IMG/VR virus record: IMGVR_UViG_3300010885_009075
Span: 1 to 23,278 of that record
Direction: 5' to 3' (one strand)
DNA from: a virus
Length of the DNA: 23,278 nucleotides
The notes below the pieces were generated by a model. That model was not told the origin of the DNA and did no database searches. It was given only the letters and a program-made list of their open reading frames with translations. Below are positions 1 through 14,114 of the stretch, in pieces (position 1 is the stretch's first letter; every line of letters starts with the position of its first letter). The position numbers were made by a program, and so were the translations under genes.

Positions 1-564
1 CTCCTCAAAGATTTTCTTTTGCTGGTAATACCAGTTTTGCCAACCTTTTACCTGCTCTACTAATTGGTAGTAGGTTCCGTAGTTTTCAACAACGGTACTG
101 AGTAATTCACTGGCTTTAACTTCTGTGGTGGTTCCAGCAGCACTTGAGGGGCTTGTGGGAACTTCACCTTGACTGGCACTGTTGTGGAGCAAGATTGTAG
201 AACCAGTAAGCTTACACTCACTGTCAAGGTCTTGAGCCACGTATTTGGTAATATATTCAATATCCGCATTGGTTATTTCTTTAACTACTTTTATTTTAGT
301 CAAAACTTTAGTTTCGATTTTTGTATTGGCTTCAGCAGATTTTTGTTCTGCTATAGCCACCTTTTGTTGCATCTCATCTACACGAGCTTGCCACTTGTGC
401 TCAGTTTCTAAGCCACCTATGTAAAAACATACAAAGCATGCTACTGCAAGTGCCATAAGCTGTATGCTACGTATATTTAAAATGCTGGCGCCAATTGCTA
501 AAACGCCACTGGTGACAAAGATTGCATAGAATACCCAATCTGGTAACCAGTTAATTAACCACAT
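1..564 (-). CDS. Rz: i-spanin (Rz-like), two predicted membrane segments; 3' end beyond left edge
   Basis: The frame is open from ATG at 564 to the window edge (188 codons, no in-frame stop), so the C-terminus is missing. The protein is expected to span the periplasm and, with Rz1, fuse inner and outer membranes in the last lysis step. Visible parts: hydrophobic segments at about residues 8-29 and 34-50, separated by a short polar turn; a charged, heptad-like helical region at about 52-110 starting ETEHKWQARVDEMQQK; a Ser/Thr/Ala linker; and a second helical region with ENYGTYYQLVEQVKGWQNW, like the C-terminal helix of Rz proteins. The start overlaps the endolysin stop by 10 nt and has AAGGA six bases upstream. 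Typical i-spanins have one N-terminal membrane anchor, so the second segment is unusual. The embedded Rz1 lipoprotein gene strongly supports the call. Confidence 0.85.
   Translation of the reverse strand, partial: MWLINWLPDWVFYAIFVTSGVLAIGASILNIRSIQLMALAVACFVCFYIGGLETEHKWQARVDEMQQKVAIAEQKSAEANTKIETKVLTKIKVVKEITNADIEYITKYVAQDLDSECKLTGSTILLHNSASQGEVPTSPSSAAGTTTEVKASELLSTVVENYGTYYQLVEQVKGWQNWYYQQKKIFEE
60..269 (-). CDS. Rz1: o-spanin lipoprotein (Rz1-like) nested out of frame inside Rz
   Basis: This 69-residue protein lies wholly within the i-spanin gene in another reading frame, the classic Rz/Rz1 arrangement. It has a basic N-terminus, a hydrophobic stretch at residues 15-24 (LTVSVSLLVL) and a lipobox-like LQSC with the lipidated Cys at residue 27. 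Gln at -2 departs from the consensus; Leu at -3 and Ser at -1 fit. The predicted mature part is 43 residues with eight prolines (FPQAPQ, LEPPQKLKP and others), and proline richness is a hallmark of Rz1. It should be anchored in the outer membrane inner leaflet and bind the periplasmic end of Rz. The ATG at 269 is the only start giving a complete signal peptide. No strong Shine-Dalgarno was noted. The opposite-strand frame in this area is a shadow. Confidence 0.85.
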   Translation of the reverse strand: MRILNILPNTWLKTLTVSVSLLVLQSCSTTVPVKVKFPQAPQVLLEPPQKLKPVNYSVPLLKTTEPTTN

Positions 565-1166
565 AAGATTTCCTTGATACGCTCATAGTGTTCTATGCGA
601 TCTTCTAAGCCCAAATAACCTCCGTTAATACGTTTAGTCATGGTTTTGATATCGCCTGAATCCGCTAAAGTGTTAAGGTCGTTGGTTTCCCAGAACCAGC
701 AAGCCGACTGTACAGCACCTTCAAAAGTTGCTAAATAATCAGGTAACTGATCTATATCACACTCAATTGAATCAGCAAACTGCTGGTAATTATCACGCCC
801 TGTTAACTGAATTAATCCACGACCACAGTAACGCCAACCATCTCCTGACTCTTCCGAACCATTGCCCATACGGTTAGCATACACGCGGTTGGCAATCTTT
901 TCAGGTTGTTTAGCGTACTGCTCGGCTAGCTCTGGTGTAGGAAAATACTTTGGGAATGTTTTTTGTAAACTGGTGGCTTTGTAGTTTAAGTTTTCACGAA
1001 TTGCCTGAAATTGGCCTGACTCGTGCGCGCACTGTGCAAGAAACGCAGCGACACGTTCCGGTGTGTCGATTCCATAGTCTGGTAGTAGCTGTGTGAGGGC
1101 TTGGTGCCATTGTGGAACACAGCCATTACCGGGTAAGATTTGATGTAATTGTTCCAGTGTTAACAT
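555..1166 (-). CDS. Endolysin, GH19 chitinase-like (lysozyme-type) peptidoglycan hydrolase
   Basis: The 203-residue product looks like the single-domain GH19 endolysins of Gram-negative phages, which cut the glycan strands of peptidoglycan. Visible family features: AAFLAQCAHESGQF with the probable catalytic Glu49; YANRMGNG at 96-103; the acidic patch at 104-109; GRGLIQLTGRDNY at 115-127, the family signature; and TKRINGGYLGLEDR near the C-terminus. There is no signal peptide or membrane segment, so export to the cell wall should need a holin. No separate cell-wall-binding domain is present. It starts two bases after the stop of the 41-codon gene upstream and lacks a strong Shine-Dalgarno, suggesting translational coupling. 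It overlaps the Rz start by 10 nt. Together with Rz/Rz1 it forms the lysis cassette. Confidence 0.93.
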   Translation of the reverse strand: MLTLEQLHQILPGNGCVPQWHQALTQLLPDYGIDTPERVAAFLAQCAHESGQFQAIRENLNYKATSLQKTFPKYFPTPELAEQYAKQPEKIANRVYANRMGNGSEESGDGWRYCGRGLIQLTGRDNYQQFADSIECDIDQLPDYLATFEGAVQSACWFWETNDLNTLADSGDIKTMTKRINGGYLGLEDRIEHYERIKEILCG

Positions 1167-3963: not shown

Positions 3964-4926
3964 TTATCTTGTTAATGAAAGGGCCAAGGCTACTTGGGTT
4001 ATGTCAGTTTTTGCGCTTGAGGGTCCAAAAGAAACTTGAACAGTGGTAAACACACCTGTTGTAGGCGTTGTTGCACCAATAGTAGTAGCATTAATTGTGC
4101 CACCAGTTATTGTTGCTGAGTTAGCGGCTTGTGATGCAATTGTACCTAGTGTTGGTTTATTTGTTAAATCAGTATAACTACCTGTGGTAGCTACAGTGGC
4201 CAGGCTACTAGTATTTGCTTTTAGTGCTAGTGCAGTTGTAATTGTAGTGGCAAAACTAGCATCATTGTTTAATGCAGTAGCAAGTTCATTTAGTGTATCC
4301 AGTGCAGCAGGTGCCGAATTTATTAAACCAGCAATTGCTGTGCCAACATAAGCTTCTGTTGCATAACCAGTTAAACTGGGAATGGTTGGTTTACCAATTA
4401 AATCATTATAACTACCACTAGCAGCTACTGTGGATAATGTTGGTTTGTTAATTAAATCAGTATAACTACCACTACTAGCTGCAGCTGCTAGTGTTGGCTT
4501 GTTTATTAAATCCGTATAACTGCCACTGCCAGCCACTGTGGCTAGTGTTGGTTTATTGGTTAAGTTATTATAATCAGTAGTACCAGCAGCACCTGTTGCA
4601 CCTGTTGCACCTGTTGCACCTGTTGCACCTGTTGCACCTGTTGCACCCTGCAAACCTTGTGGACCTTGAGCACCTTGAGCACCTGTTAAACCCTGTAAAC
4701 CTTGAGGACCGGTGTCACCTTTGGGCAACACAAAGTTTAGTACAGCTGCACTCTGAGTTCCGGTATTGGTTACTTGGGGGGTACTACCACTAGTAACACT
4801 GCCAACACTAACAGTTGCGTATGCTGGACCAACAACACCTTGAATACCCTGTGGACCCTGTATGCCTTGTATGCCTTGTATGCCCTGTGGGCCTTGGGCT
4901 GCTGAAGTTAAATAATATGCTGGCAT
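3964..4926 (-). CDS. Collagen-like tail fibre protein with NKPT repeats
   Basis: The 320-residue protein has a modular fibre layout. Residues 12-34 are a Gly-X-Y stretch ([12 protein letters not shown] and on), followed by a small beta domain at 35-68 (VSVGSVTSG ... LNFVLPKGD) that often precedes collagen segments in phage fibres. A second Gly-X-Y stretch at 70-114 ends in (GAT)n. Then come four tandem units of about 18 residues with [13 protein letters not shown] at about 119-184, a helical [16 protein letters not shown] segment at 210-225 like those in T4-type fibres, another NKPT unit, and [14 protein letters not shown]...GVFTT at 275-296. Such proteins form trimeric fibres. The C-terminal part after GVFTT is only about 25 residues, so a large receptor-binding head is absent. 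The start is supported by AAGGA before ATG at 4926. Confidence 0.82.
4396..4570 (-). repeat. Tandem 54-bp (18-residue) NKPTL...SGSYTDLI repeats in fibre gene
   Basis: Three to four diverged copies of an 18-residue unit ([18 protein letters not shown] and variants) follow directly after the collagen stalk. At DNA level the copies share stretches such as TTAAATCAGTATAACTACCA on the plus strand. Related NKPT units occur near 4150-4190 in this gene and at 10188-10290 in another fibre gene. Confidence 0.85.
4590..4643 (-). repeat. Six perfect 9-bp tandem repeats encoding (Gly-Ala-Thr)n
   Basis: On the plus strand CACCTGTTG is repeated six times without a mismatch. On the coding strand this gives Gly-Ala-Thr triplets in the second collagen-like segment of the fibre gene. 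The unit is a multiple of three, so copy changes would lengthen or shorten the collagen stalk without shifting the frame. Confidence 0.95.
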
Positions 4927-13198: not shown

Positions 13199-13785
13199 CT
13201 TGTTACCTCTTTTACTAGTGTTATAGTACCTTCGCAAAAAGGTGTTACTTGACCACCACTAGAAATTAATTCTAAGCTATAAACAGCTGTAGAAAACGTA
13301 AACTGTGCTGTTACGTCAGCAGGTATTACAAGAGTAATAGTTTTAGTAACATTACTAATATTAATGTATGCATTTTCAGTGGTTAGTTCTAAAATTACAG
13401 TATCGGACGTTAGTTTTTCACGAATTTGCATACGTGCAGTAAAACCAGTTAGATTAATAGGTGTATTATACTCTATAATACCACCGCTTACATAAGGTTT
13501 AAAACCTAAACTATTAACTTCATTGATTGTAACTGTATTTGTGGTAACACTAGTAGCTGAATAATAAGTATCCGCACTGTTGAGTTCAGTCATGCCCAAA
13601 ATATTAGTAAATTTTACACGCCACTCTGGTGTTATATTATGGTTGGGTGCAGTTACTACTAGTGGTGCACTATTACTAATGCCTGTTATTGGAATGTAGG
13701 TTTTTAAAGAAGATTCCCAGCGCAGTACTTCATTAAATGTACTACCCTGGTATATTTTAAAATTAATTTTTGCTGGAGTAGACAT
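13195..13785 (-). CDS. BppU-like baseplate/tail-tip protein with inserted beta cassette
   Basis: The frame of the protein matches the N-terminal domain family typified by baseplate upper proteins: FKIYQGSTFNEVLRWE at residues 9-24, then PINLTGFTARMQIREK at 109-124, ILELTTENAYI and ITLVIPADVTAQF, and a C-terminal YSLELIS ... GTITLVKEVTR. In such proteins the first block usually leads almost directly into the second. Here about 80 residues (28-106) intervene, containing APNHNITPEWRVKFTNI and TVTINEVNSLG, which looks like the HN-x-x-x-x-x-x-V module also seen in the 778-residue protein. It probably attaches fibres to the tail tip. Its start overlaps the upstream stop (TAATG) with AAAGGG upstream, and its stop overlaps the next start (ATGA). 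Confidence 0.8.
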   Translation of the reverse strand: MSTPAKINFKIYQGSTFNEVLRWESSLKTYIPITGISNSAPLVVTAPNHNITPEWRVKFTNILGMTELNSADTYYSATSVTTNTVTINEVNSLGFKPYVSGGIIEYNTPINLTGFTARMQIREKLTSDTVILELTTENAYINISNVTKTITLVIPADVTAQFTFSTAVYSLELISSGGQVTPFCEGTITLVKEVTR

Positions 13786-14114
13786 TAAATACCCTTTGCT
13801 TGTATATATGTATGAAGTGTAGCTATTTCATTTGTTAAGCTAACAATTTCAGTATGTAATCGTTGATTTTCTTCAGTAAGAATACGTAATTGTTTATTTA
13901 AACGAATCATTTCTTCTTGTAGTTTTCCGAGTTCAACTGATAAATGTGTGTTTTGCTCAGCCATGCGCTCTAATTCATTACGCATTAAACTTATAACTGA
14001 AGACTCAGCATTATTTAGTTGCCAAGACCCTAAAAATTTTTGTATAGCATATGCAAATGCCAATAAGCCGCCGCCCGCCATAGCAACTAACTGTGTTAAC
14101 TCTAAAGGACTCAT
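13785..14114 (-). CDS. Small membrane protein with C-terminal coiled coil (holin-like candidate)
   Basis: This 109-residue protein has one hydrophobic segment at about residues 7-29 (LTQLVAMAGGGLLAFAYAI), then a long charged helix at about 40-105 with heptad-like Leu/Ile spacing (NELERMAEQNTHLSVELGKL onwards), predicted coiled coil. I do not recognise a defined family. One membrane segment plus a soluble helix fits a class III-type holin or a membrane-bound assembly or regulatory factor. No other holin is visible, although the endolysin needs one. Against a holin role, it sits first in the fibre operon, 13 kb from the lysis genes. The acidic start and the Lys after the segment suggest the coiled coil is cytoplasmic. 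It is the first gene after a strong promoter, with GGGAG nine bases before ATG. Confidence 0.7.
   Translation of the reverse strand: MSPLELTQLVAMAGGGLLAFAYAIQKFLGSWQLNNAESSVISLMRNELERMAEQNTHLSVELGKLQEEMIRLNKQLRILTEENQRLHTEIVSLTNEIATLHTYIQAKGI

Follow-up and report, generated by a model that had tools for sequence, protein, structure and literature searches.

A phage spanin pair with a predicted hairpin-anchored i-spanin, from a family holding both nested and separated o-spanin genes

In phage lambda, the gene of the i-spanin Rz follows the endolysin and carries a nested gene for the lipoprotein Rz1. A 2018 survey of spanins (PMC6139136) describes i-spanins with an N-terminal transmembrane domain (TMD), a single helix in the case of lambda Rz. 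In the available portion of this survey the term 'two TMDs' does not occur, section 11 states that no spanin family mixes embedded with overlapped or separated members, and the origin of nested spanin genes is treated in the same section as hypothesis only. Here we analyze a stretch of 23,278 nucleotides (positions 1-23,278 of IMG/VR record IMGVR_UViG_3300010885_009075), referred to below as the window, which shares the layout logic of lambda, with an i-spanin gene after the endolysin and a nested Rz1-like lipoprotein gene. Compared by description, its i-spanin differs from Rz in having two predicted N-terminal helices instead of one.

We consider it quite probable that the locus belongs to a tailed phage and encodes a two-component spanin pair composed of a hairpin-anchored i-spanin and a nested o-spanin, and that nested and separated layouts in this family are linked by two frame-changing length changes. 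In the proposed arrangement, a helical hairpin would anchor the i-spanin in the inner membrane, with its N-tail outside and a basic loop in the cytoplasm; a long helix in the periplasm would follow, then Cys117 and a helix at the C-terminus, and the product of the nested gene would be a small proline-rich lipoprotein of the outer membrane. Once the endolysin has cleared the wall, the pair would join the inner and outer membranes, as lambda Rz/Rz1 does. Helix 1 would represent an extra anchor segment ahead of the single helix of most other i-spanins.

Spanin genes at the edge of the window

The i-spanin gene occupies positions 1..564 on the minus strand, where a frame with an ATG start runs from 564 to 1 and stays open up to the window edge (188 aa). 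The stop codon, which an earlier sequence-only reading of this DNA had proposed to look for to the left of the window, was found in L002, a 4,415-base IMG/VR contig fetched with the i-spanin. Its first 87 bases are those of the last 87 of the minus strand of the window with zero mismatches, and a TAA at L002:88-90 follows directly, after residue 188 and just outside the window. The join, for which the exact 87-base overlap is the sole basis, is supported by L004 and L005, each of which carries the same order of endolysin, i-spanin with nested o-spanin, 161-aa protein and holin-like gene within a single contig. The 161-aa protein (L002:94-576, L004:7161-7643, L005:7161-7643) has one C-terminal hydrophobic segment and matches phrog_32327 (unknown function) in L002 and L004. 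Behind the lysis genes, L002:1085-2660 holds a PhoH-like and a Dps/ferritin-like ORF, both named by eye.

Upstream lies a GH19-like endolysin gene (555..1166, minus strand; phrog_181, E 1e-84; PF00182), which overlaps the i-spanin start by 10 nt. Kinship of the i-spanin is indicated by phrog_4952 ('signal peptide motif'; E 9.8e-26, residues 34-186), by the Rz-like phrog_5369, phrog_312 and phrog_2536 (E 0.0008-0.0033), and by the annotated i-spanin of phage Salva, which is among the tblastn matches to the window protein (E 5e-3). No Pfam or NCBIfam model scored above its cut-off for either spanin, and a sequence search of the PDB with the family profile returned four matches with E values of at most 1, the best being 0.19, and no spanin by name among them. 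The best three Foldseek matches in BFVD, all from uncultured Caudovirales phages, were A0A6J5LEH1 (5.6e-06), A0A6J5KRX1 (1.1e-03) and A0A6J5LM11 (0.15); the last is named 'Spanin, inner membrane subunit', the other two are unannotated, and the likeness of all three to the window protein is by Foldseek only. The window protein is predicted to possess the N-terminal inner-membrane anchor and the periplasmic helical domain of an i-spanin, and it is predicted to depart from the textbook form with a single N-terminal TMD.

The o-spanin gene (60..269, minus strand) starts with ATG and encodes 69 aa in the +1 frame relative to the i-spanin. Its product carries a lipobox signal, LQSC (189..200, minus strand), with Cys27, the residue to be lipidated, at 189-191, and a short proline-rich mature part; it matches the Rz-like phrog_456 (0.0016). 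The gene ends 62 nt before the end of the i-spanin gene. Since L002 places the i-spanin stop right after residue 188, it lies wholly inside the i-spanin gene, which defines the embedded spanin architecture and bears out the nesting read from the window itself. Embedded o-spanins are present in 28 distinct i-spanin genes, including that of the window.

Among the tail genes of the window, that at positions 13785-14114 (minus strand) encodes 109 aa with a coiled coil and, as judged by eye, a hydrophobic stretch at the N-terminus; 'hol-like chemotaxis' and Rz-like PHROGs match it weakly. Another ORF of the tail region (3964-4926, minus strand) contains collagen-like GPQGIQG repeats followed by repeats of the NNLTNKPTL type.

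Family survey and the two N-terminal segments

A total of 139 rows was classified, comprising the window, L004-L008, L018 and 132 further loci. Eight rows were without a complete i-spanin, and the remaining 131 gave 95 distinct proteins, counting that of the window: 28 with an embedded o-spanin, 9 with an overlapped one (25-61 nt), 54 scored as separated and 4 without an o-spanin found by script. The 54 include the broken L148, and the 28 embedded together with 63 separated or overlapped make 91 pairs. For the pair analyses 91 of the 95 were kept, the dropped ones being L148 (a broken 68-aa copy) and L029, L038 and L047 (script-called o-spanin missing); L030 and L050, whose i-spanins equal those of L029 and L047, respectively, do carry an o-spanin. 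Three of the four cases without a script-found o-spanin, read by eye (L026, L030, L048), are separated with the module described below in the o-spanin; in L038 the contig ends within an apparent o-spanin signal. The L148 locus (875-1307), a relative of L126 and L127, has its i-spanin cut to 68 aa and the C-terminal part in another frame, which may be either a natural variant or an assembly error.

One query of the family search contained the C-terminal module and one of the six baits lay inside it; a weak contig scan with a small alignment and two bait patterns identified no relative among 15 pattern matches. The 16 endolysin-anchored loci include five with a complete i-spanin (L004, L005, L007, L008, L018), a cut one (L006) and one that repeats L008 (L009). 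Contigs of three end shortly past the endolysin (L010, L012, L017), a nuclease-like gene follows the endolysin in L011 and L013-L016, and L019 has a different order. L014 and L050 share one contig, as do L013 and L087, and i-spanin matches lie upstream of the endolysin there. As read by eye, separated spanin pairs precede the endolysin in L024, L026, L030, L032, L048 and L014/L050, unlike the pair of the window, which follows it. In L050 the two spanin genes are about 300 nt apart with a short ORF between them, and the insert of L038 (i-spanin from 2501) is very similar. A DUF4337 protein follows the o-spanin in L007 (7703-8248; PF14235, 3e-28), and in L048 a similar ORF, judged by eye, separates the o-spanin from the endolysin.

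The two hydrophobic segments first read at residues 8-29 and 34-50 recur in Kyte-Doolittle hydropathy (residues 15-31 and 36-52) and, as modeled, in the AlphaFold2 prediction from the 43-row alignment A1 (helices 2-6, 9-29, 32-116, 121-132 and 151-187; mean pLDDT 83.4, pTM 0.48, pLDDT about 92 over residues 11-60). Based on hydropathy and the model, helix 1 is assigned to residues 8-29 (478..543; all features of this paragraph are on the minus strand), overlapping the motif MWxxxxLPxWxF at residues 1-12, and helix 2 to residues 34-52 (409..465), where the phrog_4952 match starts. The loop between them (residues 30-33, with Arg32; 466..477) is predicted to be cytoplasmic from the charge count in 91 family members. 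It is followed by a predicted long periplasmic helix at residues 54-116 (217..405), within AlphaFold2 helix 32-116, and by the periplasmic Cys117 (214..216), which is invariant in alignment A1.

Within the first 80 residues, 94 of the 95 distinct family members, including the window, have exactly two segments (Kyte-Doolittle window 17, threshold 1.4). The exception, L004, has a weaker first segment and one above 1.4, and all 91 members used later have at least two segments at threshold 1.2. P8 and G50 are invariant (91/91), W2 is present in 83 and W10 in 85 of the 91, and helix 1 contains small residues, with G20 in 86/91 and Gly at position 23 in 77/91 (Ala in the window). Some members were fetched with N-terminal bait peptides, which favours the N-terminal motif; in the 60 of 91 fetched without them, a Pro is found at residues 6-11 in 60/60 and W or F at position 2 in 59/60. 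The aligned first codon is ATG in 84 members and GTG in two, and the other five have an ATG one codon earlier (four members) or five codons earlier (L082). Two segments in 94/95 members and Pro8 in 91/91 argue against helix 1 being a start-site artefact, and helices 1 and 2 most likely form a hairpin anchor.

Over the 91 members, the N-tail carries on average 0.20 K+R versus 0.74 D+E, with a K or R present in 18/91, and the loop 1.60 K+R versus 0.01 D+E, being basic in 88/91. The positive-inside rule is an established basis for reading membrane topology from charges. Given this charge distribution, an i-spanin with the N-terminus out, the basic loop in and the C-terminus out is predicted from hydropathy and charge, in agreement with the initial suggestion that both termini lie on the same side.

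Three other readings of these genes were weighed. A true start past the first segment, for example at Met37, would yield an ordinary single-helix i-spanin. Wrong starts are common in spanin annotation according to section 8 of PMC6139136, and phrog_4952 aligns only from residue 34 onward. We nevertheless judge such a start highly unlikely, because initiation at Met37 would cut into helix 2, P8 is conserved in every member and W2 in most, and the homologues, which the sequence-only reading had allowed might begin behind the first segment, have a start codon at, or 1-5 codons before, the aligned first residue in 91/91 cases. In addition, a Shine-Dalgarno-like AAGGA (571..575, minus strand) ends 6 nt ahead of the first ATG, although matches of at least 4 nt occur in 40% of the 91 members versus 24% at random positions, a modest enrichment only. 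A dual start at Met37 was considered and discarded. For the nested frame, a chance ORF might be invoked, since alternative-frame ORFs of at least 69 aa appear in 0.5% of 20,000 synonymous resamplings of the i-spanin and the o-spanin ATG of the window has no clear Shine-Dalgarno sequence (a clear one is found at 9/28 embedded o-spanin starts). However, a lipoprotein-like alternative ORF arose in only 1/20,000 draws and homology of the mature N-half links 25 distinct embedded o-spanins to 48 distinct ones of the other layouts, so that coincidence is hardly credible.

A third reading takes the first segment as a pinholin- or holin-like addition that would give the i-spanin a part in lysis timing. 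Like class II holins and pinholin S21, the window i-spanin has two membrane helices; helix 1 carries small residues in the family (G20, position 23), and the window is without a holin. The sequence-only reading had likewise noted no dedicated holin near the endolysin, which is correct inside the window but does not extend beyond it, since the window stops short of a downstream candidate. Two genes past the i-spanin, L002:582-920 matches PF11351 (GTA_holin_3TM) barely over threshold (25.7 bits, cut-off 24.8) and the holin phrog_3427 (2.2e-7). At the other loci at which holin genes were sought (L004, L005 and L008), phrog_3427 also matches downstream (2.7e-7, 5.1e-7 and 3.1e-8, respectively). 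Furthermore, class II holins have an N-in/C-in topology according to PMC9636201, opposite to the N-out/C-out arrangement that the charges predict for the window i-spanin, which in addition has a large predicted periplasmic domain. Section 9 of PMC6139136 assigns membrane localisation signals of spanins an anchoring role only. In view of the reversed topology and the L002 candidate, a role of helix 1 in holin action or lysis timing is not supported, and we regard it as very unlikely; the hairpin anchor is the reading used below.

The C-terminal module and its reading frame

The C-terminal helical module of the window i-spanin (residues 144-188; 1..135, minus strand) is homologous to the C-terminus of the o-spanin in separated-layout relatives. 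With hhalign, C45 of 48 distinct separated or overlapped o-spanins aligned to that of 26 distinct embedded i-spanins (99.2%, E 7.8e-20) and the mature o-spanin N30 of both layouts aligned to each other (48 versus 25 distinct; 98.7%, 4.6e-16), with at most 0.6% in five unlike control comparisons; the separated/overlapped set comprised 51 pairs from loci L023-L110 fetched with i-spanin baits only, and E refers to a one-profile search. The end of the separated i-spanins also aligned to the embedded i-spanin stretch read over the lipobox (73.2%, 3e-5), from which a C-I/V-P..F...HN.A stretch seems to be common to both layouts.

For a frame-blind test, a module HMM built from one layout was searched in the three forward frames of the other. 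In embedded pairs the module lies inside the i-spanin ORF in 28/28 (iE 1.6e-15 to 6.7e-7), and in non-embedded pairs outside it in 65/66 (iE 3.9e-16 to 8e-8), with frame +2 in 63 and frames 0 and +1 in one each; L038, the contig of which ends too early, gave no match in the three frames. Consistent with this, a pattern test identified the module in 26/28 embedded i-spanins and in none of their o-spanins, the missed L126 and L127 having Cys for Tyr, and in 62/63 overlapped or separated o-spanins (not L148) and none of their i-spanins. Of the modules compared with PHROGs, the five from embedded i-spanins each matched the end of phrog_4952 (E 4.8e-14 to 7.2e-8); the four from separated o-spanins each did so weakly (6.8e-4 to 0.024) and also matched phrog_2425 (7.1e-4 to 0.027).

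In the embedded layout, the o-spanin is in frame +1 and the distance from the lipidated Cys to the module is 107 nt in 28/28. In the non-embedded layouts (62/63 measured), the o-spanin is in frame +2 in 61 and frame 0 in one, and the distance is 126-192 nt, being 129 or 132 in 54/62; here the module was sought in the expected partner only, and the frame-blind search agrees. From the i-spanin Cys to the lipidated Cys there are 25 or 28 nt in embedded pairs versus a median of 102.5 (range 38-381) in the others. The layouts are connected by two net length changes, and in the most frequent cases neither is divisible by three. Past residue 60, embedded i-spanins carry a single Cys in 26/28 and two in the other two, and embedded o-spanins have no Cys besides the lipidated one; in 61/62 pairs of the other layouts, the i-spanin has one Cys after residue 60 and the o-spanin two beyond the lipidated Cys.

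When 91 i-spanins are placed on a tree built from their first 135 residues, which excludes the module, the embedded label requires two changes compared to a mean of 24 for shuffled labels, none of 500 shuffles being as low as two. The embedded rows form groups of 4 (including the window) and 24, both inside a set of 35 rows, of which the remaining 7 are separated. The tree is unrooted and based on few columns, with 30 of 88 forks open and long branches, and a single origin of the embedded layout could also be accommodated. We favour a relation of the layouts by indels within one gene pair, in either direction. One indel would have removed the i-spanin stop and brought the o-spanin into the +1 frame; the other would have shifted the C-terminal module out of the reading frame of the o-spanin and into that of the i-spanin.

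Alternatively, the layouts might stem from module recombination between distinct spanin genes, which would touch only this last step of the explanation, the layout change. L007 and L008 have hairpins that are similar by eye together with different layouts, and both module frames also occur among cultured relatives. Against this stand the homology of the mature o-spanin N-halves across layouts, by which the order of N-half then module is kept in the DNA, and the low number of label changes on the tree. Recombination is therefore possible but the less likely course, and indels within one pair remain our preferred reading.

As the family of the window has both layouts, it reveals the parts that stay in frame and those that switch, and it renders the origin of the classic nested gene pair testable. 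Its natural variants also make it possible to ask whether the C-terminal helix is functional when tethered to one membrane or to the other. A far-reaching and, in our estimate, improbable extension is that the spanin complex needs a periplasmic C-terminal helix tethered to either membrane, handed between the partners in either direction by frame-changing indels, and that the aromatic, proline-kinked MWxxxxLPxWxF tail, predicted on the periplasmic face of the inner membrane, would act beyond its anchor function as a fusion-peptide-like active part of the membrane merger.

Comparison with cultured phages and described spanins

In tblastn searches of 50,697 phage records, the window protein gave six matches (E 2e-9 to 5e-3), and the protein of L116 gave 26, including Burkholderia phage KS5, all from residue 55 or later. 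With the window protein and six family members as queries, two of the six yielding zero matches in these records, matches begin no earlier than residue 50, where the hairpin is ending or has already ended; the exceptions are four Stenotrophomonas records, in which the match to the window query starts inside helix 1, at residue 20. With hydropathy computed at the same setting, nine of 11 cultured relatives have one N-terminal segment. Smp131 has none, its annotated start seeming late, and Salva has two, of which 1-17 is barely over threshold (1.48), followed by 19-35; AP3 and Mana show an additional weak segment at 120-136.

The embedded-module HMM placed the module in the i-spanin frame in nine of the 11 cultured records (1.6e-15 to 0.002) and in the o-spanin frame in PAJU2 and FBPa42, and the separated-module HMM agrees with weaker values, namely 1.1 for 20Sep420 and 5.6e-7 to 0.056 for the ten others. 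All of these E-values refer to a small set of translated frames. The o-spanin frames of L155 (PAJU2), L157, L020, L021, L158, L159, L160 and L161 have no GenBank gene annotation. KS5 is listed as embedded and PAJU2 as separated in PMC6139136. Contrary to the latter listing, the o-spanin frame of PAJU2, which carries a lipobox, begins within the i-spanin gene.

In the literature covered, judged mostly by titles and abstracts and with subscription papers largely outside, we found no report of a double-helix i-spanin or of such a module exchange. The mixture of layouts extends rather than contradicts the 2018 survey, since its grouping at 40% identity would hide distant links. What is new here, within the known two-component spanins, is the predicted hairpin, which adds a second form to the single-helix anchors of i-spanins, and the presence of both layouts in one family. 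Among the nearest known counterparts, the Burkholderia phages AP3 and Mana (Peduoviridae, phrog_4952 type) have an embedded o-spanin, as in the window, and an i-spanin that ends with the same C-terminal module (1.2e-11 and 3.7e-12, respectively; embedded-module HMM, few frames), but with one N-terminal segment and no hairpin motif seen, in contrast to the two segments of the window protein. The Pseudomonas phages PAJU2 (8.7e-12) and FBPa42 (2.7e-13) share the module with the window family and, unlike the window, carry it in the o-spanin frame, next to a 117-aa i-spanin with a single segment.
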